Shown here: positions 16,562-40,568 of the stretch, one piece after another
How positions within the stretch are numbered: the stretch's first letter is position 1
Layout of the letters: every line of letters starts with the position of its first letter
NCBI GenBank assembly: GCA_039545355.1
Contig: BCJJ01000006.1
Location: 434,001 to 498,000, forward strand
Length of the DNA: 64,000 nucleotides
Direction of reading: 5' to 3'
Source: Trichosporon coremiiforme
Taxonomy: Eukaryota > Basidiomycota > Tremellomycetes > Trichosporonales > Trichosporonaceae
Notes under the pieces: generated by a model
The model's database searches: none
Told to the model about the DNA's origin: nothing
What the model saw: the letters and a program-made list of their open reading frames with translations, nothing else
Position numbers and translations under genes: made by a program

Positions 16562-16644
16562 GGGCGTCTAGCTCAGTTGGTAGAGCGCGTCATTAGCATT
16601 GTCTAATATTGACGAGGTCTTTGGTTCGATTCCTAAGTCGTCCA
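16562..16644 (+). tRNA. tRNA-Ala(AGC) with 10-nt intron
   Basis: A cloverleaf can be drawn: acceptor GGGCGTC/GTCGTCC, D-arm GCTC-AGTTGGTA-GAGC, anticodon stem CGTCA/TGACG, loop TTAGCA+T interrupted after position 37 by 10 nt, T-loop TTCGATT, discriminator A. The anticodon is AGC (Ala). There is one T-T mismatch in the acceptor stem and one in the T-stem. A TTTTT Pol III terminator lies at 16652-16656 and a CACGTG motif at 16554-16559 just upstream. Confidence 0.85.
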
Positions 16645-16651
16645 CGCTTGC

Positions 16652-16656: not shown

Positions 16657-16717
16657 GCGTTTGCGTTTGTTCTCTCCCTTTCCCCTTCAACCCAACCGTA
16701 CCGACATGTAGATCGTT

Positions 16718-18581
16718 TCAAGTACCTCTCAGCTCACTGTCGGTATGCTCCAGTACTGACGGTCAGCTCCAGCGCGCGGCGCCGTAGCTTACGCGCAAGC
16801 TCTGATGCCAGGTCAATCAGCGCTTGAGCCATCGGCGCCCACATCAGCTGACACTTTGTCTCCGAGTCAGCTTCAACATGTCTTTCGAGCTTACCACCCA
16901 CATTCTGCTCGCCAGGAGTCTCCCTTCACCTTCGAGGCGCATGAGCTAGCTTACGATTGCCTGGGAAAGGTCAGGTCAGCTAGTTATCGCAAGCGCGGTA
17001 CTGCAGATGGACACGCACCACCAATCTGTGCTTGCGGGTCTGACTCTCGCTTTCCGCAGGATGGTAGAACCCACCACCTCGGTGCCTTGTGAAGCTGCAA
17101 GTCAGCGTAAGTCGAGAAGAGAGTTTGCGCAGCTCACAGGGGAAGTCTGGTGTCAGCCAAGCGACCGAAATGCCCAGCTTATTTTCTGCTGCGGCTCTGA
17201 GTCCACTTGCAATCCAATCCCTCACTATCAGCTTTTCAGGCTGTCACCCATCTGCTGACCACCTACGCTAGGGGTCGATGCAAAGTCTGCCATCAGCTAG
17301 CCAGCAACATCGATAGCTCATTCTCAGCTGGGACAAGTCACCCTGGAGCCGTTGCGCAGCAGCCTACATGTCCCAACCACCAGTCTATCACCTCGTACAG
17401 TCGCTCAAGCTCCCCTCGGTTCACTTCCGGCGTCAGTTTTCGACAACGGAGGGTAACTCACCTGGCCATCACGACTGCAGGTCAGTTTAAGCCTTAACCA
17501 TAGAAAAGAGCATGCGCAGAGTCTGGATTCAGCTGCACGGCAGCTACAGCAGCTTACCTATCTCCATGGCTCCATCAACGCCGCCTCTGCGTCCAGTTCC
17601 TGATTATCGGCTTGAACGGGAGGTTGTACAGCTGCTCACCACCTGCACTCGGCGTCGGCATGCCGTCCGATATCAGCTAAACTCCGCCGTCTTTTAGCTC
17701 ATTTGGCTGATATTCAGCTAAGAGATGTAGCCAACGAGCTCACATCCTCAAGAGCCTGAGGTCAACTCGCCCCGTGCAGGAAACCTTACTCGTACACCTG
17801 CTATCAACTTCCCTGGGCCCGTGCAAGCTCACACCTTGTCGCCAATTCGTCGCCGCACAGGTCTGTAAGTCAGCTTCGTCCGTCACGGGGAAGCTCACCG
17901 TAGCCTTGAGGTCAGCTCTGCCAGTGGTTGTAGCTACCCCTCACCGTCCACCATCAGCTCAATGGGGATTCCCAGCTTACGCTCCGCTTCTCTCCAGTCT
18001 GCGGTCAGCTCACGCCGCCAAGAGAGCCTACGGCTCACGAGCAGGGTCTGGTGTCTGCTAACTGGTAGCTAAATAAAGTACCATCGCCGTAACAGCCACG
18101 ACACGCTCCCTCCCGCTGTGTTCAATACGCCGGAGTTTCCTCGAAACTATAGATGCCCACCATATCCGACGATGTAACCGCTGTAATCAGCTCAGTGCTC
18201 CAATCATCGAAGCTCACCTTGCCTGTTCTCAAGACTGAGCTCTCAGTTAGCTAAGTCGCTGCAGCAGCTCATCTCAAGTCTGAGGTATGCTCCCAAACCG
18301 TCTTTGGCTCGCCAGATCGGGCCACCTTGCAGCCCGAGTTGACGCAACACCACATGCCACAGCATCCTCTCATACACCGCCTGATGTCAGCTCTCAGAGA
18401 GTTAGGTAGCTCACCTAGTCGTGAGACGTTAGCGCACTGCGCATTTCAAAACCCAAAACCGTTCGTCAGCTTAATCAACCGCAGCCTCAGCTCACCGATC
18501 GGGTCTGGCATCAGCTCGCGCAGACAACGTGGGTTCACCACTTCCATTCCGTGGCTGCTGGTCAGAAAGTACAGGGGGGTT
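16718..18581 (-). other. Minimal-intron/microexon array A, 3' part (candidate hyper-intronic gene)
   Basis: No long ORF exists, but the minus strand is a chain of units beginning GTGAGCT or GTAAGCT and ending AGCTGAC(n)CAG. Measured examples are 16860-16894 (35 nt), 16756-16792 (37 nt) and 17863-17898 (36 nt). Between them lie exon-sized pieces. Removing the first two introns joins three pieces in one open frame: RLLASRMWV, then TKCQLMWAPMAQALIDLASE (plus LAL), then LEHTDSELRGT and a stop at 16718-16720. The form matches MET16 introns 2 and 3. Some units have ATAAGCT or ATGAGCT in place of a GT donor, so part may be decayed or exonised. A complete protein could not be assembled. It may be a real gene, a pseudogene or an intron-generating repeat. 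Confidence 0.5.
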
Positions 18582-18583
18582 TA

Positions 18584-19949
18584 CAGTGGTGGTTTTTAGT
18601 TTCCGGACACCCCCCCTCCGTGCGCGACTCGTCGTGACACATCAACCACGGTTGCTATTGTTGCATGCAGCATATCGGAAGAAAGCTGAGACACAGGGCT
18701 ATTGGCATGTATAACTTTCGAATGCATAGCTACTTGAATGTGTTGTCTCCAGCGTGTTCTATGACAAGTGGAATTCTGTCAAACATCGTCAGGATGCAGT
18801 TATTGATCTCCTTCTGTGGTATCTCTCTCCAGAGCATCTGAGCGCGCTTGATCATCCTTGGGATGCTATCCTTTTGAGGTCTGGTGCCGTAGACCCTGCG
18901 CTTGAGCGTGGCCCACTCATGTTCAATGGGGTTGAGATCAGGAGAGTTGGCAGGATGAGGAAGACTGACCATGTTGTGGCGCTTTTTTGTCTTGTTGCAG
19001 AGAGGTGTGTGGTGCAACCTGGCGCCGTCCTCGAGGATAGAGACACTGCCATAGCCCCTCCAGTTGGCCTTTACTCTTGCATGCGCTCTGCGCAGCTCCT
19101 GGCTTAAGATAAGTTCGTTGTAGTCGAACTGGTCCATTCCTTTGCGCTTGTATCGCTTCTTGCCATTCTTATCCCAGTAGGGGATCATAGGGGTGGGGAT
19201 GTAGACGAGTTCAGAGCGTCCATTCCACCAGATAGCTGCCCAGAACATCGCACCCTGTGATCCAGGAGGCCTTGCAATGCGTCTAAAGCGCTTTGGGCAG
19301 CGCTGGCCTTGTTTGCCAGTCCACCAGCCGCTCATGGAGCCGTCCAATGTAATGAAGGTCTCATCTGAGTAGATGACACTCTTCCAGTCGAGTTTCTGAT
19401 GGTCCAGGGCGTATTTGAGGCGAGCAGCCTTCTGCTTGTCGGTCAGATAGGGCACTCTGGGTTGCCTGTAGCGCTTGAGCTTCTTCTTCTTCATTGCCAA
19501 GCGCACAGAGGAGCGAGAGGGTGAGACAGAGCTGTTGGCCTTCTCCTGGAGGAGTGTGGCAATCTTTCTAGGTGATGCCCCGGGGTCTCTCTTCGCCAGG
19601 GTGACCACTTTCTGCATGAAACTCGGCGTAGAGACTGTTCTGGGTCTGCCTGATCGAGGTAGATCGCGTGTGGAGCCAGTCCTTTCGTATTTGGCTACAA
19701 GATCGCTGATTGAACTTCTAGGTACTTTGAAGTGGCGATGTGCAGCCCTGATGCCATGAAGTTGGGCATAGTTGACGATTGCACCGCGTTTTGAGGGCGA
19801 TTTGGGCATCCGCATCATGCTAGGTCAATGGAGAAGACGCGACTGATCTTGCATGCAAAGTTTAAGAGGCACCGGTGCAGTACGGCAAAAGTTATGTGGC
19901 ATCGCGCGACAAGGTCATGTGAGTGTCCGGTTACTTATAAACACCACTG
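18584..19949 (-). mobile_element. Tc1/mariner-type DNA transposon, apparently complete
   Basis: The element is bounded by 27-bp imperfect terminal inverted repeats, 18584-18610 (CAGTGGTGGTTTTTAGTTTC, then CGGACAC) and 19923-19949. It is flanked by TA at 18582-18583 and 19950-19951, the family's target duplication. It encodes one uninterrupted transposase. It sits inside array A and abuts a second element at its right end. Length 1366 bp. Confidence 0.92.
18730..19818 (-). CDS. Tc1/mariner transposase, DD34E
   Basis: An intact 362-aa ORF. Residues ~5-110 hold paired helix-turn-helix DNA-binding domains (VPRSSISDLVAKYERTGS, then the GRPRT linker motif). The catalytic triad is D in VIYSDETFI, D in SILEDGARLHH, and E in NSPDLNPIEHEWATLK. 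I count 34 residues between the second D and E, giving DD34E. It should bind the terminal inverted repeats and catalyse cut-and-paste transposition into TA. No frameshift or stop is seen, so the element may be active or recently arrived. Confidence 0.95.
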   Translation of the reverse strand: MMRMPKSPSKRGAIVNYAQLHGIRAAHRHFKVPRSSISDLVAKYERTGSTRDLPRSGRPRTVSTPSFMQKVVTLAKRDPGASPRKIATLLQEKANSSVSPSRSSVRLAMKKKKLKRYRQPRVPYLTDKQKAARLKYALDHQKLDWKSVIYSDETFITLDGSMSGWWTGKQGQRCPKRFRRIARPPGSQGAMFWAAIWWNGRSELVYIPTPMIPYWDKNGKKRYKRKGMDQFDYNELILSQELRRAHARVKANWRGYGSVSILEDGARLHHTPLCNKTKKRHNMVSLPHPANSPDLNPIEHEWATLKRRVYGTRPQKDSIPRMIKRAQMLWREIPQKEINNCILTMFDRIPLVIEHAGDNTFK

Positions 19950-19951
19950 TA

Positions 19952-20658
19952 TGATGTATTCGAACGGTGGCGCCACCACTAACACCACTTCGTGAGCAGG
20001 CGACTCGCCCGAACCTCTGTAACTCCATCGTTTCTGCAGCTATGCATTTCAAACTTGGCATGCGCATAGCGCTGTGTCTTGGATACAAGCTCATATCATG
20101 CATGCACATCTATATCTGCCGGACAAGAAGGGTTTGGGGGTGACCTGGAAGCGCTATAGATTGTTCTCACGCATGATCCTGCGGATGGTTGACAAGCAGA
20201 AGCGCCTAACATTGGCCTCGACGACTGGAACAAGCTTCTTGGGCGTGAGCTTGTGGTGCTGTTGGATTGTCTTCACAACCGCTTGCTCCTCGCGCTTGCT
20301 GTAGGTCCGTGGGCGTCCACTTCGCTTCTTGTTGAGCAGAGCTTCGTCCACAGAAGAGTTGGGGTCCATGGCTGTCGATCCAGCAACCTTCTTGAGCTGG
20401 TAAGAAACTGTAGAAGGAGCACACTGGTACTCATCAGCCACAGCCCTCAATGACATGTGCTTGGTAAGCGCAGCCATTCCAGCACGCTCTGCAGGTGCAA
20501 ACTCGCGTATCTTGGGCATTTGGAAGCGTAGAGTTCCAATATGCAGTCAGACTGGCTTAAAAGTGATGCATACGGTGGCGAATGGAGTTGGAAGATGCTT
20601 CTCGAGAAGCATGTCTCGAGCGCCACAACGCCACACTCTGTATTGTTCGAATACATCA
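19952..20658 (-). mobile_element. Non-autonomous Tc1/mariner-like element sharing a TA with its neighbour
   Basis: Perfect 14-bp terminal inverted repeats (TGATGTATTCGAAC at 19952-19965 and its complement at 20645-20658) are flanked by TA at 19950-19951 and 20659-20660. The 707-bp element keeps only the N-terminal part of a transposase. It directly abuts the 18584-19949 element, and the two share the central TA. One therefore inserted into the target duplication of the other. An 18-bp perfect palindrome (ATGCTTCTCGAGAAGCAT) lies at 20595-20612. Confidence 0.85.
20154..20519 (-). pseudogene. Truncated transposase, helix-turn-helix part only
   Basis: A 121-aa ORF with an N-terminal HTH (MSLRAVADEYQCAPSTVSYQ), a GRPRTYSKRE linker and a second HTH (STIRRIMRENN). 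A TAG follows, and just past it the same frame reads RFQVTPKPFLS, resembling the next conserved block of Tc1-like transposases, before sequence identity is lost. The whole DDE catalytic domain is missing. The remnant could still bind element ends and act as a repressor, but that is speculation. Confidence 0.8.
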
Positions 20659-21428
20659 TAAACCCTTCCCCTGTACCTGTTGTCAGCTCGCGGCATGGTG
20701 GGGCCAGCGTACCTTACTTGCGCCCGCTTCCGTTACGCCCGCCCGCGCCCTCGGTGCCCGCACGTCCCCTACCGATCCCACACTGTCCCTCAACTATCCC
20801 ACACTTGTAGTAGCTCACGACCAGCCCTCAACACTCGGCAGCAGTGCAAGTCAGCGTGGAGCCTGTTTGTCAGCTCGCAGCCGATTCTGGTTAGCTTGCC
20901 TTGTCTTGGAGCCCTGGGGGTCAGCTACATGCACAGGACAGTGAGCTAACGAAGGCCTGATGTCTGCTTGTTAAGATGTGTCCAGCCTACTCTGACTGTC
21001 AGTTACCAGCCCTGATGAAAGCTCTCTATTCGACTACTGTGGGCCCATACGCCCAGACCGCCATGGCGCAAGTCTGCAGCCAGCTTCGGCCGAAGGTACG
21101 CGAACGGCTTACGCTTCGTCTCCCGTCGTCTGGCAATCAGCTGATAGTGGGAATTCCAGCTTACCGCCAGTCACCACCCAGCTCCATAAGCATACTCCGC
21201 TCTTCATGGCCGCTTTGAGATCTTGTCGTGGGTTGGGCGTTGCGGACCTCGATGGCGACCGATCTCGACGCCTATCTCCGCCTGCCCGCCTCCACCTTGG
21301 CCACCATTGTTTGGTTCCACACCGACCTTCCCCTGATTTTCGCTTCTACCTCTCTCCATCATCCATTAGTCAGTTTACACCACGCTCGCGCGCTCCACAC
21401 GCTTCGCGTGACCCGCTCGCCAATGCAT

Positions 21429-21463
21429 CATCTTGCATCTCCCTACAGCAATGACCCTACCAC
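21429..21463. repeat. 35-bp perfect repeat, copy 1
   Basis: Identical to 24119-24153. On the minus strand it sits at the presumed 5' end of an array-A copy. Flanking similarity, weaker, extends downstream on the minus strand to a shared ACGCCCAAC(G/C)CACGACAA block. Confidence 0.9.
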
Positions 21464-24118
21464 GGTCCCTAAGGAATGCAAGAGATTTTGTGCCCTATGG
21501 TCGTGGCTCAATGAACCTGGTGTCAGTTTCGACGTCGTCCGAAAATCTCACCGCCCTCGCCTGGCGTTTGGCTCTTCACGGACATCCAAACTTACTGTTC
21601 TCTGCTCTCCACATCTGCTTGGGCTGTTGGCTACATTCAAGGGTCTGGGGAGCCCACCGAGCTCTGCAGAGTCAGCTCACTGCTGTGTACTCTTCGAAGC
21701 TCACCGACAGCTCATCGGCTTTCTGACGGCTGCCTGAGCTCACTTGTTGGGCCCCAGCATCAGCCGCCTACAGTGGACCCTAGCTCTCCATCTGCATCTC
21801 CCCGCACGTTCTGGTCAGCGGGAGAGTACGAGGACATAGCTTACGAAGCGAGAGCTGGAGTAAGCTCTCGAAACCCTAAACCGCAGCTCACCTTCTCCCT
21901 CTCTTCCGACTTCCGCTTGTTGCGTCCTCTACCAACCCGACACTGCTCATCTATTGCACAGGCAGAAGCTACCCACCCATATCCCACACCGGGTCGGTGT
22001 GGGACCCCATAGGGTCTCTGTCAGTTAAGCTATGCGGACTCAAAGCTGACCTCACCCCTGTTTGGTCCGGGCGTCTTTTCCTGGAGGTCTGCTACAGACA
22101 CACCCGAGAGCTCACCGGATGCTGTCGGCTGAGAAATCGAGGCTGTAGCTTACTGGTCACTCCTGCTGTCATCTCTGACCGCTTGCGCGCTCACCGCTCG
22201 CCGCTAACCGTGGACCAGCACCGTGGTCGGACACATATAGCCCCAAACCTTGGGATCAGCTTCACACCTCGCACCTGACTGTTGTCCGCTGACCAATGCC
22301 ACAAACTCCGCTTGCCGTGTTCTCTGGAATCCGTGGAACCCGTCGCCTGCTCTGCTATTTGCTGTCAGCTCATCTGCACAGATGCCCAGCTTACTTCTCT
22401 CTGTCGTCCTGGGTGGTCGGCTGGTCTAGACCCCCAATGCACCTCACCGAGCCCTGAGAGGTGCGCTTAATACCTCCTTACCTTCCACTGCTCACCTACG
22501 CCCGGAGCTACTCGTCAGCTTTCCTTCGGCATCAGCAGCTCTCGCCTTGAGACTCTGGCGCCAGCTTCAACGCGAAACGGCTAGCTCATAATCACGCAGC
22601 GGCTGGACCGCGAGGCAGCTAGCTCACTGGAAGAGTCTGGTATCAGCTCAAGGACGCAGCAAAACTCTGACTTTCCTGTTGAGATATTGAAGACCTCGGC
22701 ACCTTGAAGTGGCACCGGAGTCGACCATTTCATTAGTCTTGGGTGAATGCTCTCGCACTCCGCCGCTCGTCACTAGGCGCAAGGTGCACTCCCATTCATA
22801 CAACAGTAATTCCAAATCTTATCCTCTGCCACAGCTTATGGGTCCAGCCTTGACCCGTTTGCACTAGCTCTTGATGTCTGCTCGGCACGCTCGGTTCTTG
22901 CGAGCGTTGTCTGCTCGGCGGCGCTTTGTTGGGTACGCCTCCTCATCAGCTCATACCGGATGCAGCTCAGCTCACTCCGGCCCATCTGCGGAGCTGCTGG
23001 CGGTCGGCTGCATGCAGGAAATGGCCAGCTCACTCGACTCTGAGAGGTCAGCTCAGTTCGCTTCTTAAAGCTCACTCGTCCTCATTGCCGACACCTCAGT
23101 CCCATTGTGGCCTGGTGTCAGCTACCGACAGTGTACTTCCAGCTCACCATGTTTCATTGTTCCTTTGTTCGCCTCTGCGTACTTCTGTTCAGCTGCAGAA
23201 GGGGATAATCGTAGCTTGCAAGTAGAGAGGAGACTAGGAGACTGGTGTCAGTTCACACCGTCGCAAAAATGCAGGATACCTCTCCCCTCTGCGCCCGCTC
23301 CCGCTGCGCCCGTCGCAGCCCTTGCCAATCCAACACTGTTCTTCAGCTTCCTCGTCCTGCATTAAGCTTACCAACCCCAACTGACAGCGTGGAGCCATTG
23401 ACTGCAGTCAGCTCCTGACACGGTTCCACGTAGCTCACTGTCTTCTTGGCCTGGAAGTCAGCTACTTACGACGGCCCGAAGTCAGTTCCTCACGTATCTT
23501 TTGCAGCTCACTCTGCACTAGCTACTCTGTAGCCAGCAGATCATGCTCTCATAGTAACTCACTCACCGATCTAGTATTGTTTGCCCCAGACCGACCAACA
23601 CAGGGGTCAGGTACCAGGTCTCCGGCTCGTGGTCAGCTACACGACCTGCACTGAACGGCAGCTCGTCAAGTCTGTGGTGTAGCTCACTCTTAGTTCACTC
23701 CTTCTCATTGATGTCAGCTCATCAAGGCAATAATGAAGCTCACCAATCGACTACCGTCCCTACTGGGCATGACTCAAGCCTGTTATTAGCTGTGCCGGAC
23801 GTGTGCAGCTCACTTCTTCGGCTGATTGTTAGTTACTGGTTATGAACACTCCAGCTTACCTCGTCTTTAGGCCCTCATCTTAAGAAGAACACACACAGTA
23901 CTCCACGGTCCTCTCTTGACGTTTGTCGTGCGTTGGGCGTTGCTGACTAGTTCGATCGACGTTGTCTGAGCTGTTTGCCTCCACCTCCACACTTCGCCAC
24001 TTTCGTATAAACGTGTATCCTTTGCGCGCCAATGTGACGTCTCCCAACCTCCCTATCGTCAGTACTCCAGTCGACAACTACGCTGCGCTCGCTTCGCTCG
24101 CTCCACTTGCTAATGGGT

Positions 24119-24153
24119 CATCTTGCATCTCCCTACAGCAATGACCCTACCAC
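24119..24153. repeat. 35-bp perfect repeat, copy 2
   Basis: Identical to 21429-21463, and marks the 5' end of the outermost array-A copy next to the DYRK gene. Confidence 0.9.
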
Positions 24154-24394
24154 AGTCTCATGAAAATGCAAGAGTTTTGGTGCCCTGTACTCGAGACTTT
24201 CGAGTAATAAAATATATGTAGAATAAGCATGACGCGTTCGTTTTTCGTTTCGGGAAAGTTGTATACACAGTTAAAACGATGATGTAAATGGTAGTATAAA
24301 TGGTAAATGTTTTGGGGAGGGATTGGGGAGAGGTGGTTGTCTATGCGGATTGTTGTGATGAGAGAGTGCGTCGGGGTACGTTTGCTTCGCTTCG

Positions 24395-27300
24395 CTACGC
24401 CATGCTGACCTTTTGCGCATTGACGTACGCGCTGTTGCGCGCGTGTAACCGCGCCGTGGCGGGGACGCCGACGCGCGGCGTGGACGTGTTCTGCGGTGCG
24501 CGTGCGACGAGCGGCGTCGGTGGCGAGATGACGAGGCCCTTCTTCTCGCTGCTGCTGCCGTTCGAGTACTGCGTCGTCTGCCGGCGCGAGGAAGTGCTCG
24601 AGCTCAGCAGGGACGTACGGCCGTCGCGCTCGGTCTGCGACGACGTCGGCGGCGGCGGCGCACGACGCCTGCCTGCGAGGATCCACGGGTGGCGCATCGC
24701 CGGCTGCGGCTTGAGACGCTTATCCGGGTCCCACGTGAGGCACTTGGAGATGAAGTCGACAAACTGCTCGTCGTTGCACTTGAGCACCGACTGCAGCGAC
24801 TTGGTGCCCGGCCGCCGGCGCTTGCCCTTGGCATTGACGAACGGCCGCGCGGCGCCCGTCGCATCGAAGAAGAGCTTCCGGCGCGACGCCTTCTGCACGA
24901 TGTAAGAGTCGGGCACACCGAGCACCTCCATGATGCACGCGAGCTGCTCGTGCTCGTTCTCGCCGGGGAAGATCGGGTAGCCCGTGTACAGCTCGGCCAG
25001 GATACAGCCGAGAGACCACATGTCGATCGCCATTGCGTAGTTCATGCCGAGAATGACTTCGGGCGAGCGGTAGAATCGCGACTGGATGTAGGTGTAGACT
25101 TTCTCAGACTCGTGGCACGAGGAACCGAAATCGATGACCTTGATGCCACTCTTGCTCGGGTGCCGCAGCAAAATGTTTTCCGGCTTCAGATCGCAGTGTA
25201 CGATGCGGTGCGAGCGCATCAGCACCAGAGACGACAACATCTGTGTCGTGAAGCGGCGGATGAGCACCGTTGAGAAGCCGTTAAACTGGTTCGCTTTGAT
25301 CAGCTCATAAAGGTTGATGCTAAGCAGCTCGGTGACAATGCACAGGTGACCGCGGAAGTAGAAGTGGTCCGTCATCTTGACCATGTGGTGCTTGTCCTCG
25401 GGGTCCCAGTCGACGATCTGCTGCAGGATCTTGATCTCGACGAGCGCCTGGGCGTGGAAGCGCTTCTTGTTGCGGATGATCTTGACAGCGACGGAACCAC
25501 CAGTCTTGTGGTCACGACAGTGAACGACTTGACCGAAAGAGCCCTTGCCGAGCACGCCCATGACCTCGTAGCGGTAACAGAGGTGGTCGCCCTCGACGAC
25601 AAGGTAATCGCCGCGCTCGTCATCGTAGCCGTGGTTGTAGAGCTTGCCGTCGGCACCGACAGGACGCTTGACACCCGTGACCGTATAGTAAATGTGGTCA
25701 AAGTCGAGAACCTCCTTCCGCTCGTAGTCCGACAGGCTGCCGAGGTTGCGCGAAATGAACTGGCGCTGCGTGAGCGCCTCAGCTGGCTGAATGTCCTCCG
25801 GGAATCCGAGCAGGTCGCTGAGGTCGTCCTTCTTGCTGTGGCTGGCAGCAGCACGAGCCTTGCGGCGGACCACGTACTGCGCCATCTCCGCGTCGGCCAT
25901 CGTCTCATCGTCATCAGTCGGGCTGTCGTGGCTGGACGTGTCGCCGGCAGCCAGCGAAGCTCGTCGCGACGCTCCAGCAGATGAGGACAGAGACATCCTG
26001 GAGTGACCGGCAGAAATGCCTTTGGTGTGGAACGACTTGGATGTCTTGATCGGCTGCTTCGTGCTGTTGTCGTCCGTGTTGTCCGTCTGGCTGCTCGTCG
26101 AGCCTCGTCGAATGCCGGCAGGACGGACCTTTGCGGCGGACGAGATCGTCATCGTGGTAGCCGACGACGGCAGCTGAGGAAGCGTGCGCCGGGACGGCGT
26201 GACCATGTTCGATGACGGAGCGATGGCTAAAGTCTCACGACGAGAAACAGGCGGCGCTGGGATACCAGAGACGCTTTGCTTCCTGGCGGACATGGGCGCA
26301 AGAAGGTGCGATCGGTGAGCGGCGGACGAAGAACCTACCTGGAACGATTGGCGGGACCCCATGCTGCCAAAGTCACCAGGAGACATGTCGTTGACGCTAG
26401 TGGACGACGGCAGGTGACCGTTACCAGACGATGATAACATGTTCGCACTTCTGCTCGTCGCCATACCAGAAGGAAGAGCCGGAGGCGGCATGCTGGTGTG
26501 CGGGCTTGTCATGTGTAACGCCTGCGTGTTGGGTGTCACCACCGAGGGCCTGGACGTCATGCGCGGGATCTTCGTGGGAGTCGCCGATGGCGGTGGGCGG
26601 TTGCCATCCTTGCGGAGAGACGAAGCCGAGGAAGCCGTGTGCAGACCGTGCTGGCTGCTGGCCATGGGAAGTCGCGTTCCCTTCACAGGTAACCCGTTAA
26701 GTATGCCCGACTCCGCGCGCTGGTGTATGGTGTTCGGCTGAACATTCATCGAAGGATTGCGCGACAAGGACACGTTGTTCTGGTCACCGCCAGACGATAG
26801 AGTTAAGCGACGCGGGCGACCGCCGCTGCGGCCGATCGAACCGATCTTGGTTAGCGAGGGCTCCTTAGTGCGGGGCTCAACAGCGGATTTTGGCGGCTCG
26901 CCAGTGTCGATCTCTTCCTGAGGCGATAATTGATTGTGCGAGATGCCGCGCTTGGACCCACTGACACGCAGCATGGACGGTATGTGCATGCTGCTGAGCA
27001 TGGACTTCCGGGCGCTGGACGGCGTTCGCTGGGCCATCGAGTTGGATGACGTGGACGCCGAGGAAGCTTGAACTGATAACCGAGAGGCCTGGGGGTCGGG
27101 CGGGGAAGCGAGCTTCTGCGACAGCGAGGCGGATGAAACGGAGGAGCGACGGAAGAACGGGATAGAGGAAGGCGTGAGACGCTTAGATGCCGATCGGCTG
27201 GGCGGCGCCAGATTCGAAGGAGGTGCGATCGGCGTCGTGCTGTGGTTCGAACGGGCATCCGAGATGGTCGAGTGAACGTCGATCGAATCGCGGGTACGCG

Positions 27301-30300
27301 TGGGAACCAAGGGGCTCTCCTCCGGCCACTGCACGGCACGCGGCGGTGAGTCGCCAATATCGAACGACGAGTTCGGAGACGACATGATGTCCTTCTCTTT
27401 GTTGTGCAGCCCCTTAAGGCTAAGTGCTGATGAGAAGGACCATTTTTTGCTCATGCTTCGACGCGCCGGAGTCTCGCGAGCCGAGCCGTCACTGAGCGTC
27501 AAGGACACGGGCGTCGGTACCTCGGGCGATTCCTTGTGTGCCTGAGGCGAAGGGAAGGTGGCCGAGGGAGATCCCGGGGCAGCCGTCGACTCGACAGGCT
27601 GGGCGGGCTGGGCAGATTCCGGCTGTAGTGGGACATACTGCATCGGCGGCGGGGCTTGCAGTGTCGGACTGCCGGAAGGGGAAGACTCGGTGGTCGTGGG
27701 CAATGTCGTCGTGGAACCGGTGTGCGGCAGGTGCGTCGTAGATCCTGAGGGAGGCACCTGGGTCGTAGAACCGGCTGTGGCCAGTCCTGAACGCATGGAC
27801 ATGTAACCACGAGGGAGGGGAGGGACCGGTGGAACAAAGCTGTCGCTGGTGCGATCGTCCAGGTTCCCGTCCAAAGACGAAATGTCACTTCCCACACTTG
27901 GACGGCGTGCCGCCTTCTCCGCTCGAATGTCGCGCAGGCTGGTCGGAGGCGTGCCCGAGCCACGCAGCGGAATGAGCGAATCACGAGACGTCGGCGTGCC
28001 CACCACACTCGGTGACGATTCGCGCTTCTCGAACGTTAACGGCGGAACGTCACTGCTGCTGGCCGTGTACGTCTCCCGTCGAGCGCGCGTATGCGTCGCG
28101 GTCGCCGCTAAGTCGTTGTGGCTAGCTTCGAACCAGTTGCTCAGTGGTGACTCCTTCTCCCGACTGGCGGTGACCTGTAAGCTCAGAGTGTTGTACTTGC
28201 TTGAGCTCTTGCGAATCGTCTCTGGCGGGGTGCCTGGGTGAGCTCTCGGGGTAGCAGCAGTGTTAGCAGCCTGCTTCTTAGGCGTGGTACCTAAGCCGTC
28301 CAGCTTCCTCAAGGCTTCCACAGTGGCCGCGACCTCGCCAGACTTCATCGACTGCGCTCTTGACCGCGAGCGCGTCGACTCGGAACGCTGTAACGGCGGC
28401 TTGCCGTGGCCGGACGCCGACCCGGGAGGTGTCCGCACCGTCGAGAGGTTCTGGCCAGAAGACGATCCGCGCAGGAACTGGTTGATTGACGCTGTTGAAG
28501 GACTGGGAGGAAGGTGCGAAAAGTCTTTGGGGGCGATGTGACGGAGAATGTCGTGGTGCGGCGCACTAGGGCTGGGTGGCGCCCGACGCTTCGTAGTGGT
28601 TTGCGAGGAGATCGACGTTTCCCTATCCCGTCCACCTCCAGAGGGGGGTGTCTTCCGATCGCGCCAGGTGAAGGACGGTGTCGTCGAGTCTGCCGAGCCA
28701 GGAGGAGAGGCCATGTAGCTATTGATGGGTAACGGCGGAATCTCGACCGGCTTCGGCGGTGGTAACCCCTCCGCAGCCGCAGCTGCGAGCTGGCGAGACG
28801 CACGCCGAGCATAGATGCGCTCTCGGGCACTGCCAGGCAGCGGCGGTGACGTTGGCGAACCGAACGGTTTTGTCGGTAAGGGAGGAACGGCTGGAGGGTC
28901 TGTGAACAACTGATGCGTCTGTCGGCGCTGCGACTTGGGCGGAAGAGGCGGAACAGCCGCCAACGACAGTGCTTGCGCAGAATAGCTCTTCGGTGCCGGC
29001 GGAGCTGAGGCGCGGACATTAACCTCGCGTGGCGGAGACGTCGGAGCCGACAGCGATCCTGGAGCTGGCTGGAGAACTTGCGACTGATTCAACGGGGACA
29101 ACGAGCCTGCTAAGCCGCCCGTCGAGTCGATCTGCGAGTCAAAGTTGAAGTCGTTCAGCGACGACAGCGAAAGCAGGGAATCCAGCGCCTTCACTCCAGC
29201 CTGCGTCGAGTTCCGCTTCGTGACGGGCGGGCGCTTCGGGGTTTCATGCGAGACAGAGCGATGACGGGCACGGGCTTGTTCTCGTTCCCTTCGAGTCTGC
29301 ATGACGTCGTCGCTGATGTGCTCGACCTGGTTGGGGTATGCGCTCGCTGGTCCAGCCAGCTGCTCGCCTGATGGGTCCCAAACATGCCGCCCCGGTGCCG
29401 AGCCCACGAAGAGGCCGGACGCAGGCTGAGGTAAAGGCGGTGCTAAGCTGAAGTCGCCTCCGTTTCCGCCTGGCATGCTAGGCGTGCGGAGATGACGGAA
29501 TGACGGGCCCCATCGCGGAGTGGCGAGTTCGCCGACGCCAACGAGGCCACGACGATCAATGTTCGAAGGGTCCAGGGGATCGGGTGTCGTCGGCGTGAAG
29601 GTAGATCCCATGTCGCCTGGCGATAAACCGCCGTTCGCGCCAGCACCCAGGTAGTACGAATCGATGCTGTAACAAAGACATCAGCAACCCGTACCGATGG
29701 GCTGTCGCGTTAGACTCACGATACTCGATCACCATTCGTCGCCACTGACTCTCGTCGGTCGATCACAGACTGCCTGCAAGTGTCGATGCCAATGCTACTT
29801 GAGAGGCTAGACGGTAAGAGACCTTGCGGTGACGATGATGGCGGTAATTGATGCGCTGGAAACGGAATGGAATCTCTGCGCTCACGCCCTGGAACAGAAC
29901 GGAGAACAGGACTCGGGGGCTCGTATTCTTCCTCGGAGGGCGCAGTCGGTAATGGTCGTGGAACGGGCTGGAGTGTCAGTTTCATCCCAATGCGCGGTTA
30001 TATGCGCAGGCCGACGAAACTCACCATGTCCATGGATTTTTGTCTTTCCGGAACCTGCGGCGGCCGCGACGGGCTCGACTGGAGGTCGAGCAGGGGCATC
30101 GCTGTGGAAGGCGGTTCCGGACGAGTGCTCAGGTCGAGGGCTGCGGGGGCAGGCGCCCGCCGCCCCTTCAGGCCGATCGTGCTAGACGCCATTGCCGACA
30201 TCGACTGCGACGCAGACACCCGTTCTCGTGCGTACGCAGAGGGCGCGGACGCAGGCGAGCTGTAAACAGAGGTCGGGGGCGAGGTCGTGGAAGCGTTTGC

Positions 30301-30684
30301 CGAGAACGCGTAGGGATCCGACGCACGAGGAACAAGAGGCGGGCGTGAAACAGACGTTTGGGCAGATGATGATGGCCCAGCCCAGGTGCGGTCTGAGCGC
30401 ATCTGGGCACCGCTACTGTTCAGCTCAGTCGCCCCCTCCGAACCGCTTGTCGGGCCGCGCGACGTTTGGTCATACAGGCCGAAGCTTCCCGTTGACGGCT
30501 GGCTCGACAAACGACTGGCAGGCGACGTGTGTCGAGACTGAGCAGCAACCTTTTCAGGGCCACTCGGACTAGAGTTCCACGAAGTGCTGCCGGGAATAGA
30601 TTGTTGCGTGTAGCCAGCGGCGACCGACGGTGTCTGAGAGGACCCGGCGCTTGGCGGGGAGCCTCGCGCAGCGGGGTAGGTCAT
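24395..30684 (-). CDS. DYRK-family protein kinase, Pom1-like
   Basis: Model: exons 30684-30025, 29967-29720 and 29666-24395, 2059 aa. Both junctions preserve frame (KSMDM to PVPRPLP; GDRV to SIDSYY). The first ~1600 residues are Ser/Pro-rich and disordered with many SP/TP sites. A DYRK homology box (NHGYDDERGDYLVVEGDHLC) precedes the kinase domain at ~1665-1963. That domain has the glycine loop GVLGKGSFGQVV, catalytic loop HCDLKPENILL, DFG as VIDFGSSC, and the autophosphorylated activation loop KVYTYIQSRFYRSPE with the YxY signature. DYRKs phosphorylate their own loop tyrosine, then act on Ser/Thr. Pom1 relatives set cell polarity and size control at the cortex, so that role is inferred. Start chosen as the ATG at 30684; an upstream in-frame ATG at 30837 is less likely. 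The protein is about twice the usual length. Confidence 0.9.
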
Positions 30685-33600
30685 AACGCGTGTTGTGTTT
30701 ATTGGCGGTCTGTCATGGAGAGGGCTGGAGAAACAAGTCAGCGCGCCGAAGAAGCAAGATGATGAGGAGGTGTGGGATCGGCTTCCTGTGTCTGTCACAA
30801 CGACGCCAACGGGCAAGGCAGATCTGAGCTGGGCCAAAGATTGTCGCGACGCGCCGTTTCAGTGGTACGAGCGGGAGGCGACACCGGTGCAATGTTTAAG
30901 AAGGAGGGCGAGCTGGGAACAACAAGGCAAAAGCGATACGCACTGGAACCAAAGAGCTAGTGAATGGCGAGGCGCAGAGGGAAGAGAATGCGAGAGTGAT
31001 TGGTGTGAGAACGCGTCTAGTGTCGGTGGATTTTAGGTCGAGTGTTGGAACAAAAGGCAAGGCGGGGTATAGGTGTCGTCAATGTACGTGGATGTTGGAC
31101 TTTGGTAGCGACAGAGTGCAATGTGTGTGGTTGAGTGTGGGGGTGATCGCGGGTTGAGTGAATGCAGTGGATGTGAGTGCAAGTGGGCGGACGTCGGACA
31201 CCTTGCGACGCGTGGTAGAGCAAGGGATGGGACCCCAGGAGGGAGAGAACCAGAGTGCGAGTGATTGATTGGACGAAGGGAAGGTCGCTGGATGCGCTGA
31301 TCGAGTGGGTTGGTTGGGTTGGGCTGGGCGGAGTGGGGTGGAAAGAGACGGTATGTAAGGGTTGGCCAGTCACTCTGGTGCTGGCGGGGACGGGTGTGTG
31401 TGTGGTGGACGGGAGACAGAGAAGAGGAGGGGGACGATGAACGAGTCGCCGATGCAATGGAGGTGCAGGCAGATGCAAGCTTGGCCGGGTTTGAGGTGTC
31501 AATGTCGGATAGGACTTGGTAGGCGGCAGAGGGTGCAGTGCTACGGTGTCATAGTGCATAGTGCATAGTGCCGGACGTGTGCAGGTGCGGGGTAGCGCAG
31601 GACGGAGGAGACACACGCAGGTATGCAGGTACGCAGGTACGCAGGACGCAGGTCACGGTGGGAATGGGTCGGTCGTAGCAAAGGAGGCAGTAGACGGCAG
31701 CTCAGACTCAGCTGGCTCAGGCATCCAGGCAGCTTTGACCGCGGTACGGCCCAGGTCCAGGGACGATGGCCAGGACGCCAGGACTTGACTGGCACACTGG
31801 TAGCCGCAGTGGCTCAGTAGCCAGCCTGAGTGCAGCGTGCAGACCGTCAGCCAGTGCGGTTGGTCTCCATAGCTCTCTCTCTCTCTCATAGGCCCTGCAT
31901 CGGCGCTCCACCTAAGCGTTAGCCTAGGGACTCTGCCTAGGTTTCGTAAGGGTTCCAGCGCACCATCTCCTTCAGTCTCTCCCTGTCTGCGCACGCTGCA
32001 TCCTCCATCCATCTCTCTCAGCTCTCAGCTCTCAGCTTCCTCACCGCCCGCTCCAGTCTCACCAGCTTTAACATTGGGTGCTCAGGCGCATCGCTCGTGG
32101 CTGCATGGCTGTGTCCGCCGTGTGCATCCTCCACAGACACCAGACGGCCCGTGGGCGCAAACGCTGGGCCGTCGCCACCTTGACGCCCGTGTCCTGCGAG
32201 TAGCCCATGCTCAACCTCTAGTGTTATTCTGCCCGCGCAGTCAACGAGCGACGAGTTTGCTTGCCGACATACTCTCCGGAAGCCGCAGATCATTCCATGC
32301 ATTCGTTGGTGAGATTGTTCGTATCAAATGCTCGAGACGACGACTGGTCGACGACATGAAACACTAGATTACATCTGGCGCAACGTAATGCTGCCCCTGC
32401 CCCCGCCCTGGTCCGGCTCTTAGGGCTCCCTCCTCCACCTCGTCCACTGCACCAGCTGCACTACCCACTATTGAGTCATCTTCAATCCTCCCATGCCTCC
32501 CACCACCCAGATCTCGACCGCTCGAACCGTTTGGTGCTGGGACAGCCCAAAAATGGCAAGCCATGAATCAACCTGCCGCTTTCGCTGTGGCGGCTGTGAG
32601 AACATGGGTATCTGTCCCACCCGCATTCATTCCTCGCTTTTCCTCGCTTCACTCAAGCAAACTTGCGTCGTGGGGCCCTCGAGCGACTCCCGCTCTCTCT
32701 CATGCTCATTCATCATTCAGCGCATCATACGACACCCGAGAGGCAGACAGCGAGCACTGAGCGTGTGAAGTACCCGTGAGCGGTGAGGCCCGTGCCATCT
32801 CCCTTTTGACGCTGAATCCCTGCTGAACCCTGATCATGAACCTGAAGCCGGGCGATTCGAGAAAGTCAAGGTCATGCTTGTCCTGACCAGCTGAGACTTC
32901 TGACTCGTCCTGGCGACCCGCCTGCGACTTCATCGATCCATCGGACCGCTCCATCTACCGATCCCTGTTCCATGACCACAGCCGCTCATTGCTCACTTTG
33001 TCCCGTTCGTCACTGAATCTCGGATCTCCGAGGCATCCTGCAGCTTTCGTGATCGCAGTCCGGAAATCTCGTCACCCAGCCTGTCTGGCCCCTCCACGAC
33101 CCGTGCATGCCGTGCATCTGCCCGACCGGGTGCCTGCCAGCCCGCTCCTACATGTGACTAACGCTATGCGTAGAGTTGGTGGTGTTTCCCACTTTGCAGA
33201 ATTCCAGTTACATCCCAATTACGAACCGGCCATGAGCGCCGAGGTTGTCCTGTCCGCTGTCTGCCTCCGTCCGTTGTATTGCCTTTCCGGCGAGTTTGGG
33301 CAAGACAGCTGCCCCTCCGTAAAGTAATAAGGACCATGTGCCGTACCTGGGTCTAGGTCATCTGCACCCTATGAGTCAAACCTAAACAGTTGAGGAGCAT
33401 GCGGTCAATGGAGATGCTGAGTCTCCAATTGACAATGTCCCGGTTACTTTGCATTCATCGTCTTGTTTGGTAGCACTGTAAAGCCTGCACGGCATGGAAG
33501 CTCGGACGACGACAGCGTCGTGCGAGCAGCTCGAATGACTCCCAGCTCCCAGCCCTTCACCATGTCTGCATTCCCATTTCCACACTTCCAACTTCCTGTA

Positions 33601-34169
33601 CATGCAAGCTCGCTGGGCTTTCATGTCAAGCAAGATGCCACTCACTGTCACCGCGATGTTGTGATGGTGCTCTGGGTGACGGTGGCTCTTTGCCTCTGGT
33701 CTTCTGCCCGCCTCCCTGATCTATCACTCACGCCTCGCAAGCCTCTCACGCGTCTCAGGTCTTTCTCAGGGTCACGCATTCAAGCGCGTCTCTTTTGCCT
33801 CCGCCTCACACCGCCACCAGTGATTGCGTGGATCCCAACTTCAGCGGAGATCTCTATTCACTCCGTGTCTCTGTCCCACGTGGTCGCCTCATAACACCAT
33901 TACGTAACCACCGTCACAACAACAAGTTCAGACGCTAAGCCAAGTAAACAACAATGACTTCGATCAGCTACATCATCCTGTCTCAGACTCCAACCTCCAT
34001 CTCGAGCACACATCATCCCCACTCCCTGTTCGCCTGTATTCACCGAGCGGACGACTGATACCGGATCGCTCTCTGTTTCTTGCTCGCCCGCTGTCGACAC
34101 CCTCGTGCTCGCGATACCAGAACCGCATCCTGACTCCACCTGGGGCCGCTGCCCAACCGCGGAACCGAC
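30685..34169. other. 3.5-kb gene desert between divergent genes
   Basis: The region between the DYRK start and the disordered-protein start has no convincing gene. Open frames here are short, Pro/His/Ser-rich and lack family features. The part near 31.0-31.6 kb is strongly pyrimidine-rich on the minus strand, as expected of a leader or promoter of the kinase gene. A short GCAGGTAY tandem tract lies at about 31615-31655. A CACGTG occurs at 33877-33882. Long regulatory leaders or non-coding transcripts are possible. Confidence 0.5.
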
Positions 34170-37100
34170 ATGCCTGCCCCGGCAACTATCGAGTCGCTGG
34201 CTCCGGCCGGCTTTATGGTACACGGCGACGATGAATTTGTAGGCGACCACGCCGCAGCTGACGTGACGTTCTCGGACCTCGGCTTCTCATCGTCGGATGA
34301 CGAGGCTGGTGTCTTCTTTGGCACGCCGAAGGCGATCGAGCGCAAGATCGTCGCTTCGCTGTCCAAGACGATCCCACCGTCCCCTGCCTCGAGGGACTTG
34401 GCCCTTACCGCTGCATCCGGATCGTCCCCCTCTCGCTCGCCAGCCGTGAAGCGGATCAAGAAGCGGGACTCGCGCGAGTTTCTTCGCCGCAAGACGATCC
34501 TCCTCGCACACCCCGAGGTGTCACCGGCGGAGAAGGTGTGGGAGGGCAACTTTTACGAGAAGGATCCGCCGGAGACCGAGGAGCTAGCCTCGCCCAGCTC
34601 TGAGGGTAGCAACCAGCAGTCGCCGAACATTCTGGATATGACCGCGTCGCTGATCACGACGGCCGATGTCTCCCCCGCGTCGTCCAGTTCTAGCCTGGGC
34701 CTCGACATCTTCAACAATGGCGACACTTCGTTAGAATCAGACTTTGACAAGGAGAATACCGACATTCCTGAACCGCTCGACTACACCCCCGAGCCGGAGT
34801 ACATCCCGGACGAGCCGGAGCCTACCGTCGCTCTCACGCTCGGCATGCGGGAAGCCCAGCTTATTGATCTGGGTGAGTAGCTGAGGTGATTCTGGACGTT
34901 GGCTGACATGAGCAGACTCGTCGCTGCAGCTCGATCTCGGAGGGCTCAACATCCTGGACGTCGACGACCCAGAGGTTGGCCACGATCTCAGGCCGATGGA
35001 GTCCACCGCAGACCTTCTCGGAAGTAGCGACTCGGAGAGTGGTGACAGCAGCTTCAGGTCGACCGCCTCGACGACGTCCTCCGGCGCTGTTGAGACCTCG
35101 GTGCAGACACCAGAGACGGAGGCTGTCGAACCAACAGACGAACTGGAAGGGCCGGCCGCACTCCCTGACAGTGCTAAGGCGGTCGCTGCGATCGTGAGCC
35201 TGGCCGAGCCCCCAGTTGAAGAGCAGAACATGATCTCCGAGTTAGCGACCCCATTAAGGGCAATGGGAGGATTAGAGGCCGAGGATCTGCGTCGCTCGAC
35301 GCTGCAGCCGGTACCTCGAGCTCTCGCACGAGTGTCGGACGCATCGTTTGCCGGTTCTGAGACTTCCTTCGCCTCGGACCTTGACTCGCCGAAAGCGCGC
35401 GGCCCGGTCAAGATTCCCGTCTTCTCTGTTCCCTCGCCGAAGCACACACCCGTTCGCGGATTGGCGCCATCGAGCCACGACGCATTCTCGGTTCCGGAAC
35501 ACTCGAGCGATTTCGCCCTTCCCTCGATCGACAGCCCCGTTCCCTCACCGAAACCGAGGCAGCAGCCGGTCCCGATCTCCGTGATCACCCCTGAAGCTCG
35601 TCAACGAGTGTACGAGGTGCTGCCTCCGAGTCAGCGTCCGAGCCGGATACTGAAGTCGAGTCACATCCGCACCTCGTCCAAGTCGGAAAACCGGCCGCCG
35701 ACGCCGACCGAAGAAGAGGTCAAGACGAAAGAACGCACGCAAGTCATCCGCAGCGAGCTCGACACGATCTTCAAGGCGAAGTGTGCCGGGTTCGGGCTAC
35801 CGCGACCACAGAACGCCTCGACGTCAATGGTGAACAGCACTACTGTGGCTGCGACTCCGCGGAGGTCGGCCCAGAAGCCGGTCAAGGGTTTGGCGGAGTC
35901 GACTAAGGTGTCGCCATCGAAGAAGGTCGTCAAAAAAGCCCTTGCTACTTCCGGCTTACCCCGGCCAACGTCTGCGATCCCGACCGCTAAGAAACGATTG
36001 GACTCGAGCCTGTCCCGGCCCATGGCGTCGACGGCCGCTAAGATCGCGCCTGCTACCAGGCCGCCACTTGCCTCGGCGAGGAGAACAGCGACGGCTGTTC
36101 CGTCCCGTACCACCGTCCCGGTCACGGCTGTTGGCCGTTCTGTCATGGTGTCTATTCGTCCCACCGAGACCCCTGTACGGATGAAGCACGCCTACGAGCA
36201 GCCTGCGTCTGTCCGGGCACGTCCTATCGCCGTCGCCGTCGGTGCTCGCCCTACACTCGGCCCAGCGGCTCGCCTGGTTCGCGACCCGAGCTCCGGCGAC
36301 CTCGTCTACGCTACGAGCGGCGGACAGTCATTCAGCGCCGAGTTCTCTGTCGCCCCGCCCCGATCGCCCGTGGCGCAGTTCGCGCCCCGCTCCCCCGCCG
36401 CTCACTTGACGCCACGCTCGCCTGGCTTCTCCCTCGGTCGACCGTCTCGCCCCGGTGCTGGTCCGACACCGACCCCGCAGCGCTCCTTCCGTCTCGGGGG
36501 GGCGAGCCGAACAGGAACACTTCGCCAGCCATCGCCCACGAAGAGCTCGATTGTGCCGACCGTTCTCATGCAACATGACTCGGACGAGCCGTCATCCGAG
36601 GGATCAGACTCTGGCTCCGCCTCACGCTCTAAGGACGCACCTAAGGAGGACGCCCAGGGTCAGACTGCAAACGAGTCGCCCAAGAATGAGCCAACAGAAA
36701 CAACCGATGCGTCAGCTGGGACTGTACCTGCACCCGAACCCGCCCCTGGACACACAGACACTCCCTCCGAGCCCAACGGTTTGTCCAGCGAGCCAAACGG
36801 ACATGCCGAAGCGAAGCCCTCCGAGCCAGAGCCCCAGAAGGAGAAAGTTCAAAAGAAGAAGACGTCCTCGCCCCCAGCCCAGCCGACTCCTGAGCCGTCG
36901 ACACCAGTCTCCGCCTCTGGCCGACCACGCCGCACGCCCAAGCCCGTGGACCGGTTAGTCCAGGCCCCAGTTCCGACTAAAGCTACCGTGACGCCGTCGA
37001 TCGCGCCGGGCTTATCCGAGAAGGAGCTCAAGACGCAAACGCAGCGGAACACGATGCGGAACCAGGTCTACTTCTGCGCGATTGACCGGCAGATTGTGCG

Positions 37101-37653
37101 CATGCCCGGCCCCCGCCCGCCGAGTCCGACAGGCAGCATTCGCACGCTGGCCGAGAAGGAGGAGGAGGAGCAGAAGACTGAGCGTGACGCGCGTGCCCGG
37201 CGGCGGAATCGGGGCTGCGGCGACGCGAGCGAGTCGGACGACGAGCTCCCCGTCATCGAGAAGGTCACGGTCGACTCCGCGCCGGGCGACGAGGACGGCG
37301 TGGCCTGGAAGACGCCCGCTAAGAAACGGAAACGCGCCGTGGCATCTGACGATGAGGACTCGACCACCCGCAATGTACGATGGGACCGGGCGCTGACCGT
37401 CTTCCGGGGCGGGCTGGGTGAGGCGCCGCGCAGCGGGGACCCACGCCGGACGCAGAGTGAGGAGCCAGCCACGCGCAGCGCGCTCAAGCCTGGCGCCCAG
37501 ATCCAGCTTGACCGGAACGGGAACGCGGTCGACCGGCCTGTCGAAAAGCTCAAGAGGCAGAAAGTCACGGTCACGGCGGTGTTCTATGACGGCGAGGAGC
37601 CTGTACCTGAGCCGGCGAAGAATACGCGGAGCAAGAAGAAGAAGAATGCGTGA
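34170..37653 (+). CDS. Large disordered basic/Ser-Pro-rich protein, unknown function
   Basis: Model: exons 34170-34872 and 34916-37653, 1146 aa, joined phase 1 across a 43-nt intron with GTGAGTAGCT and GGCTGAC. I do not recognise a domain. Visible features are an acidic N-terminus with FSDLGFSSSDDEAGVFFGTP, a KEN-box-like motif (SDFDKENTD) near residue 195, and a helical charged stretch (PTPTEEEVKTKERTQVIRSE) continuing ELDTIFKAKCAGFGLP. Long Ala/Pro/Ser/Arg-rich low complexity follows, then a likely nuclear signal KTPAKKRKRAV. The C-terminal ~60 residues are basic. KEN-type degrons are typical of APC/C substrates, so a nuclear, cell-cycle-linked role is a weak inference. Codon use and the clean splice make it a real gene. 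Confidence 0.8.
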
Positions 37654-38618
37654 GCGGGCGAGCAACCGCGACCGTAGCGAAGATACATCCCACCGTGAGC
37701 GAAGCGAGCGTGATGAATCGCGCGAGTGTACTGCGCACAAAGAGTGCAGTGAGCGCAGGAGTAGACTGACGTAGAGTGAACCCAAAGGTGTAGAATGTAA
37801 CACGTAGGATGTACGAGTAATGCAATTCTTGGAACGGGGCTGCCAAATGTAGACACAGCCACTTGGCGCGTAACGTCAGCGAAGGAACCGGTCATCTGAG
37901 TGTCGATCGGGGAGTTGAGTGGAAGTGTGTGAGTGTGGGTCACGCCACAGTACTTGTGGGGCCGGAACGCATTGTCGCAGAGTAAGCCATCGCCTGGCAC
38001 GCCTGATCGCACCAGACAAAGCGGTTTAGGATGTGGGATATGCGGCTGCGGCTGACAGACGAAGCCACAGTTCGCCACCGCAGCAAACGCAGCGCAAGCC
38101 AGTGCCAGCCAGCCAGTGCCAGACTTTGTTGCCATCCTAATTCTGTAACGGGTTCCGTGCCTGAACATGCCACCTCAGCACCACTTGAAACGGGTATCTT
38201 TGGCCCGCCCTCGCTCTCCATCTCTCCATCCCTCCATCCCTCCATTCTTGGGTGTCAGTGTGGCCAGCTGTCACTGTTCACTCTACCCGCTCTTTTCTTT
38301 TACTCTACTCTACTCCCTGTCAACCGACTTAACTTGCATGCGTCTACTCTGCTAAGGACACTTCGACTTGCCCATTGTTTACCAACCGGCTACCCCTACT
38401 TCTTCTCCCCCGTCCCGCCCGGATCGCGCCGCTGGCCTCGCCGCTCGCCGCTCGCCCCGTGCACCGACCTCCATCACTCTGACACGACGACACGAGACGG
38501 CACAAATCCTTCCCTCCACTAGACCGGCGCAGAGCCAACTTGCGAAGTAGCTTACCGGCACATAGCCAGCTACGCTAGCCAGCTCGCTCCGCTCGCAGGC
38601 TATCGCTGCTAGGTCGCA
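37654..38618. other. Intergenic, disordered protein to NIPA-like gene
   Basis: About 965 bases. The last ~400 are C/T-rich with CCATC and TACTC repeats, consistent with promoter and leader of the transporter gene. Nothing else recognised. Confidence 0.5.
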
Positions 38619-40265: not shown

Positions 40266-40568
40266 GATTTACTGTTGTATGAATGGGTAGTGTATCTTGC
40301 GACGAGCGGCGAGCGGTGAGCGGAGCGAGTCGCGAAGGAGCAGGGGGCGGGCTGCAGACTGACCTTCACTGATTCTATCACACTGACTCCCTATAGCCCC
40401 TTGGGAAACTGAGCGGCTGACATCACGACTCAGTGAGCTAGCATAGGAAAGGAAACTGATAGCGGACGCTGTCGTCTGCCGCGGTCGTCTGCCTGTGCTG
40501 TGGGGGTGGAGGCAGGGAGGGGAGGTTTGGGCGGATCGGCAGCGGGAGCGGGCGCAACAGAAAGCGAC
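40266..40568. other. Intergenic before array B
   Basis: About 300 bases between the NIPA-like stop and the first ATG of array B. It contains GGCGAGCGGTGAGCGGAGCG-type low-complexity sequence reminiscent of the GAGCGAAGCGAGCG tract at the 5' end of array A. No gene seen. Confidence 0.4.

Follow-up and report, generated by a model that had tools for sequence, protein, structure and literature searches.

Introduction

Genes built from many tiny exons are known from schistosomes (micro-exon genes) and aphids (bicycle genes), where they evolve fast and encode secreted proteins, and copies of introner elements have sequence in common. In fission yeast, noncoding RNAs that contain introns are known to have siRNA production and heterochromatin formation promoted by those introns (PMC5322907, PMC11696164, PMC7229227). 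In Cryptococcus, the SCANR targets are described as inefficiently spliced, mostly transposon-related transcripts (PMC5851062). Here, we analyse loci of Trichosporon coremiiforme that are packed with predicted minimal introns, two of which, arrays A and B, lie in a 64,000-nucleotide stretch of DNA (the window). Nothing similar was found among open-licence papers searched by title and start of abstract (most subscription papers and all preprints fell outside this scope), in line with the statement of the first-pass annotation that no fungal family of such density has been described.

Results

Two arrays of minimal introns in the window

The minus strand between 16.7 and 24.2 kb carries a dense run of units of the form GTRAGCT...AGCTGAC..CAG, each about 36 nt long. 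The five units quoted in the first-pass annotation (16756-16792, 16860-16894, 17863-17898, 23040-23075, and 23112-23147) match the minus strand letter for letter. Its suspected excess of paired motifs is also genuine: GTRAGCT followed by GCTRAC at intron distance occurs 12 times in 16718-24170, compared with a mean of 0.06 and a maximum of 1 in 200 second-order Markov versions of this region, and the remaining 54.1 kb of the window has two such pairs on the plus strand and one on the minus strand.

An intron model, seeded with the strict consensus, was trained iteratively on contig C1, using 30 loci of 3 kb that overlapped in part and had a strict-consensus match at their centre. With this model, array A contains 33 predicted introns at a score of at least 9, against about one expected. 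They fall into an upper part (20677..23859, minus strand, 34 predicted introns at a score of at least 5) and a lower part (16756..18538, minus strand, 19 at the same threshold). At scores of at least 6, 9, and 12, the upper segment (19991-24200) has 33, 21, and 16 introns, while the means of 40 Markov simulations were 2.33, 0.53, and 0.03; the corresponding numbers for the lower segment (16701-18570) are 19, 12, and 9 versus 1.68, 0.50, and 0.05. Array B (40626..42290, plus strand, 18 predicted introns at a score of at least 5) has 15 at a score of at least 9, versus a Markov mean of 0.33. Window-wide at this score, 33 of the 44 minus-strand introns lie in array A and 15 of the 26 plus-strand introns in array B. 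Arrays A and B are the same kind of locus, with dense minimal introns on one strand.

The antisense strand showed a smaller excess (8, 3, and 1 introns at scores of at least 6, 9, and 12 in the upper part of A; 7, 4, and 1 in the lower part; 5 at a score of at least 9 in B), which we attribute to the near-complementarity of the donor and branch motifs. The donor GTGAGCT and the branch AGCTGAC are complementary except at one position, so that introns appear intron-like on either strand; at window 62743-62784, strong predicted introns with scores of 17.5 and 13.0 overlap on opposite strands. The mean donor-branch complementarity, 5.440 of 7, is slightly over that of all 200 re-pairings (maximum 5.437), and a donor-branch stem was considered and dropped after non-significant covariation (Fisher tests, p 0.44 and 0.31).

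Several other descriptions of array A had to be revised. The units do not recur uniformly every 50-100 nt, as gaps between predicted introns range from 6 to more than 300 nt. Nor does the region consist of 7 kb without a conventional ORF: a Tc1-like DNA transposon (18582..19951, minus strand) with 29-nt terminal inverted repeats and a 362-aa transposase ORF (18730-19818) is inserted in it. Matches to the end of this transposon occur at 15 other places in the genome, some being partial; identity is 96-100% for most of them, suggesting that the element has been active recently. The open frame reported to end in LEHTDSELRGT-stop is confined to the last piece, where it spans 11 codons plus the stop, and has no evidential value. 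A transposase-like helix-turn-helix fragment of 121 aa (20154..20519, minus strand; Pfam HTH_32) also lies in array A.

Leader 1 of array A (24079..24198, minus strand), past the 3' end of a kinase gene, is 83% identical to contig C12 over 102 nt and 78% identical to leader 2 (21391..21508, minus strand), a second copy within the array (direct repeat D1, 118 nt, spacing 2690). Another element (22763..22850, minus strand) shows 76% identity to one at the start of array B (40220..40316, plus strand), which overlaps the end of a NIPA-like ORF. A motif with GGGCGCA lies in exonic sequence of array A (23289..23311 and 20718-20740, minus strand) and in array B (40535..40557, plus strand). The distal end of array A is marked by a tRNA-Ala gene (16562..16645, plus strand), and a tRNA gene also stands at the matching spot beside the C12 array (L049 4124-4206), as a boundary element might.

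The array introns resemble ordinary introns of the genome

As had been proposed, the units have the form of the ordinary short introns of this genome, whose strict pattern occurs at 779 places in 42 Mb and at none in the reversed control. When 434 array introns were compared with 98 coding-flanked introns, both sets being model-selected, the donor, branch, acceptor, and length profiles were similar, with median lengths of 37 and 38 nt, respectively, and 5% GC donors in each (candidates were limited to GT and GC). The array introns are sharper at donor position +6 (C in 88% versus 60%) and before CTRAC, and their last branch base is less well defined (C in 74% versus 91%).

A donor was sought 32-43 nt upstream of 227 strong branch-acceptor sites; a perfect one stands at 138, one with a single mismatch at 58, and neither at 31. 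The mismatches at donor positions 1-7 number 9, 12, 6, 17, 7, 6, and 1, with C accounting for seven of those at position 2; a broken donor G or T (C excluded) occurs at 14 of the 227 sites. This spread over nearly all positions indicates that strict selection does not act on many of the single introns, and the 58 sites with one mismatch and the 31 with neither kind of donor point to single introns being lost while the arrays persist.

Intron-packed loci recur across the genome

Patterns of acceptor, short exon, and donor (5-30 nt between) were found at 100 + 38 places, 137 of them distinct. Among these, clusters of at least two within 6 kb number 28 and singletons 41; when placed at random, they formed a mean of 2.7 clusters and at most 9. 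The count of 28 may be low, given that one array on C15 was absent from both lists and one on C25 appeared as a singleton only. Twelve of the 28 clusters, chosen for pattern density, were examined in detail, and all 12 of these dense ones resemble arrays; array B, a singleton in the list, was added. Together they hold 366 introns in 39.7 kb. The high density and very short exons noted at first in array A are genuine and recur at many loci.

In the resulting set of 13 arrays (A, B, L042, L045-L049, and L052-L056), there are 8.0-14.3 introns per kb at a score of at least 6, making up 30-54% of the length, and the median gap between introns is 12-59 nt; 120 of the 420 gaps are 15 nt or shorter, with 3-nt exons in L054 sitting at the chaining floor of 3 nt. 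By comparison, 26 kb of flanking loci (L043, L050, and L051) yielded 6 introns at a score of at least 9, and within the training set of 30, L024 and L032 attain 9 introns in 1 kb. Mean intron scores are 12.1-13.9 in 12 of the 13 arrays and lowest, at 11.4, in array A. Two distant places, C2:509061 and C4:1543395, share an identical 30-base acceptor-exon-donor string and may belong to recently related arrays.

GGGCGCA was counted in 15 arrays with their leaders (the 13 plus those on C25 and C15): 29 sense copies versus 4.1 expected and 4 antisense copies versus 4.4 expected. A, B, L042, and L049 have the motif in common as relatives, and C1/C25 and C5/C17 are pairs. At least one copy is present in 12 of the 15 arrays; one, in L048, falls within a predicted intron, and some may be part of neighbouring genes. 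GGGCGCA followed by GTACGCT occurs at one place genome-wide. With intron motifs masked, the CpG observed/expected ratio is 0.87 in 68 array windows versus 1.07 in 199 others, which are largely coding; it is 0.70 in three transposon windows and 0.90-1.23 in six unmasked intergenic pieces of the window.

Arrays keep their places in a second genome copy while their sequence turns over

Two diverged copies of every region examined are present, which suggests that the whole genome may be a hybrid or an old duplicated one. Its ArgRS protein has a nearest match at 97% identity, followed by Vanrija humicola (72%) and Cutaneotrichosporon (71%), in keeping with a Trichosporonales-like genome. Each pair compared (C6/C12, with two arrays, C5/C17, C1/C25, and C7/C15) has a matching array in the same place and orientation. 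The near flanks are mostly 82-89% identical between copies (82-88% for the C5 and C17 arrays), and the arrays hardly align. Blind look-up of the flanks of C1:2037k and C7:603k led to C25 (87%) and C15 (89%, then 72%), respectively, and an array was found in both cases (2/2) with matching place and orientation. In these two alignments, exon-exon columns are 0.53 and 0.47 identical and intron interiors 0.50 and 0.44.

For the kinase gene that adjoins array A, the final 3.3 kb and the C12 counterpart show 91% identity, and 77% when third codon positions alone are compared. In the global alignment to C12, identity runs at 0.94-0.93 in the kinase, 0.74 past it, 0.67 and 0.64 over the leader, and 0.39-0.51 per 200 nt in the array itself, the last range being given without an unrelated-sequence baseline. 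In local BLAST, the leader gave matches (8.6e-20 and 1.3e-8), and other matches were mostly as weak as those of L042 to the unrelated array L054 (best 4.8e-4). Stronger exceptions were lower A versus L042 (7e-9) and the distal parts of B and L042 (5e-8), the latter being expected from an inversion.

This inversion covers the 16-kb segment between the arrays (24079..40126). Window 12.46-16.66 kb and 42.2-46.8 kb correspond to C12:418.0-422.2 and C12:446.2-450.7 in direct orientation, while 24.08-40.13 kb corresponds to C12:427.0-442.9 (427004-442859) inverted, in pieces of 66-89% identity. Both breakpoints are inside arrays, one in A and one in B; since the two are oppositely oriented and share a common element, recombination between them would be a natural explanation.

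Coding potential and repeat content

The first-pass annotation had proposed tandem genes with dozens of tiny exons. Taken as protein-coding genes, these are mostly unsupported, as the spliced models of the 13 arrays are no more open than shuffled ones: with fixed splicing, open runs are near the shuffled mean and none exceeds the shuffled maximum. Codon scores range from -0.24 to -0.35, do not exceed 0.25 in any window, and are slightly over shuffled in 13 of 13 arrays; three CDS controls, which are also training data, scored 0.05, 0.39, and 0.37. A joint search of splicing and frame was run with 60 nulls per array in which weak introns were kept. Path length was ordinary in 10 of the 13 arrays (at least 16 of the 60 nulls equalled it), speaking against coding there, and left the matter ambiguous in L042, L045, and L048, whose longest paths of 353, 414, and 436 codons were matched by 5, 1, and 2 nulls. 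Intron scores enter into the total score, which no null out of 60 exceeded in L042, L045, and L053; one did so in L054, two in L048, and four in L047. Eight gene loci used as controls gave best paths of 269-701 codons, a range that overlaps the long array paths. GGGCGCA copies within single exons of L049 are 11 and 8 nt apart and hence in different frames, and the two copies in the first cluster of array A are in the same frame. The arrays are probably noncoding, with some coding doubt for L042, L045, and L048.

The other early suggestion, relics of an intron-generating element, found no support, as DNA searches with array A gave no similar intron copies. When about 5.5 kb of array A was searched against the genome, the matches were limited to one element in array B, a piece of leader on C12, and the end of the transposon. 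No introner-type shared internal sequence appeared in these searches, and intron interiors are unrelated in most arrays. Tandem Repeats Finder was applied to the window, L045, L046, and L042, and lag tests (about 250 values) showed no tandem similarity of intron interiors in most arrays; the top values were lag 4 in L045 exons (z 4.4), lag 5 in L046 exons (z 3.5), and lag 5 in L052 intron interiors (z 3.4). In L045 (C1:2037-2041 kb), the exons have a period of four and the introns lack it, as if the exons were partly constrained. Rfam 15 covariance models had no match inside arrays (89 kb of loci at gathering thresholds; window 16-43 kb at E <= 0.1), and the matches in those loci were tRNAs only, beside A and its C12 counterpart.

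Discussion

We propose, with a probability of roughly 0.55, that arrays A and B belong to a class of dispersed, probably noncoding, intron-packed loci, in which splice signals are kept and the rest turns over fast. Each array would be transcribed on one strand from near a leader, and the transcript would cross minimal introns of the type normal for this genome, numbering from a dozen to several dozen and separated by very short exons. What appears to be kept is the one-strand run of splice signals, the position, and, in most arrays, the GGGCGCA motif, possibly through selection on splicing; intron interiors, most exon sequence, and individual introns would turn over fast. This reading is favoured by the sense-strand excess, the gene-like introns, the 28 clusters against 2.7 expected, the matching places in the other genome copy, the want of a clear coding signal, the strand specificity of GGGCGCA, the lower CpG ratio (0.87 versus 1.07), and the presence of Argonaute, RdRP, and DNA methylase domains. 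As a sign of silent chromatin at the arrays, the CpG depletion would be indirect at most. Against it stand the near-flat donor mismatch spectrum, the coding doubt in three arrays, and the mostly coding nature of the CpG comparison set.

How such loci might act is less clear. Exons of a few nucleotides should block the simultaneous engagement of neighbouring introns, so splicing would be serial; crowded introns may then stall spliceosomes, and the stalled RNA could feed nuclear RNA interference or chromatin silencing. The genome has matches above cut-off to Piwi (Argonaute) and RdRP domains and also encodes a DNA methylase domain. We regard this stalled-spliceosome route as the most likely mechanism, yet a doubtful one: near-ideal introns would count against it unless crowding itself causes the stall, because the cited models need inefficient splicing. 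Somewhat less doubtful, although still tentative, is the broader idea that the selected content is splicing itself, with the arrays serving as spliceosome traps that seed silencing or titrate the spliceosome and, in addition, as recombination sites that flip segments.

Three other explanations were weighed. Neutral or decaying intron-like DNA, either a worn satellite or dead intron-rich genes no longer spliced for any function, would account for the near-flat donor spectrum with its broken GT, the fast turnover, the inversion breakpoints in arrays, and the low mean score (11.4) and two transposon-derived inserts of array A. We consider it unlikely, however, as a perfect donor stands at intron distance from 138 of 227 strong acceptors and the other genome copy retains the arrays in the same place and orientation; moreover, with intron interiors mostly devoid of tandem similarity, the splice motifs, too, should have been lost had the decay been old and neutral. 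Distinctly unlikely, in our judgement, are fast-evolving protein-coding genes of many microexons. The path lengths in L042, L045, and L048 that few nulls matched (5, 1, and 2 of 60), the total scores that few nulls beat in these three and in L053, L054, and L047, and the slight codon-score advantage over shuffled models in all 13 arrays all argue for such genes, but codon scores are negative, open runs never exceed the shuffled maximum, 10 of 13 arrays have unremarkable path lengths, the GGGCGCA frames differ in L049, and the gene-locus controls reach 269-701 codons.

The least probable of the three would have noncoding transcripts act without RNA interference, as a spliceosome sink or, through their joined exons, as scaffold RNA. 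Numerous near-ideal introns, the strand-specific exonic GGGCGCA, and the exon periodicity of L045 (z 4.4) and L046 (z 3.5), which the introns there lack, would fit this idea. Among about 250 computed lags, however, a z near 3.5 may arise by chance (the L052 intron interiors reach 3.4), and exon sequence is barely conserved between matching arrays, leaving it a slim chance.

If the proposal of noncoding, intron-packed loci is true, splice signals themselves, in introns that are usually passengers of genes, can be the functional content of a locus. The arrays would then offer a test bed for spliceosome-coupled silencing, for the lower size limits of introns and exons, and for rearrangement driven by intron arrays, of which the 16-kb inversion between A and B is an example.

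Compared with known systems, the arrays have the tiny exons and the fast evolution of schistosome micro-exon and aphid bicycle genes, but most of them show no clear coding signal. Like introner elements, they place introns of one form throughout a genome; unlike them, their introns mostly share splice signals only. Their likeness to fission yeast dg, dh, and cenH, where the spliceosome acts with introns in promoting siRNAs and heterochromatin, would lie in intron-containing noncoding transcripts, here predicted (PMC5322907, PMC11696164). The introns of those loci are described as one or multiple, cryptic, and poorly spliced (PMC5322907, PMC11696164), while the arrays have dozens of near-consensus introns per locus and lie beside housekeeping genes. 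With the Cryptococcus SCANR targets, they share the Tremellomycete setting, introns as a proposed trigger, and the presence of RNAi genes; they differ in that array intron signals are close to ideal and the array loci are not transposons (PMC5851062). The arrays may be an extreme form of spliced noncoding loci, with a real chance of being a kind of their own.
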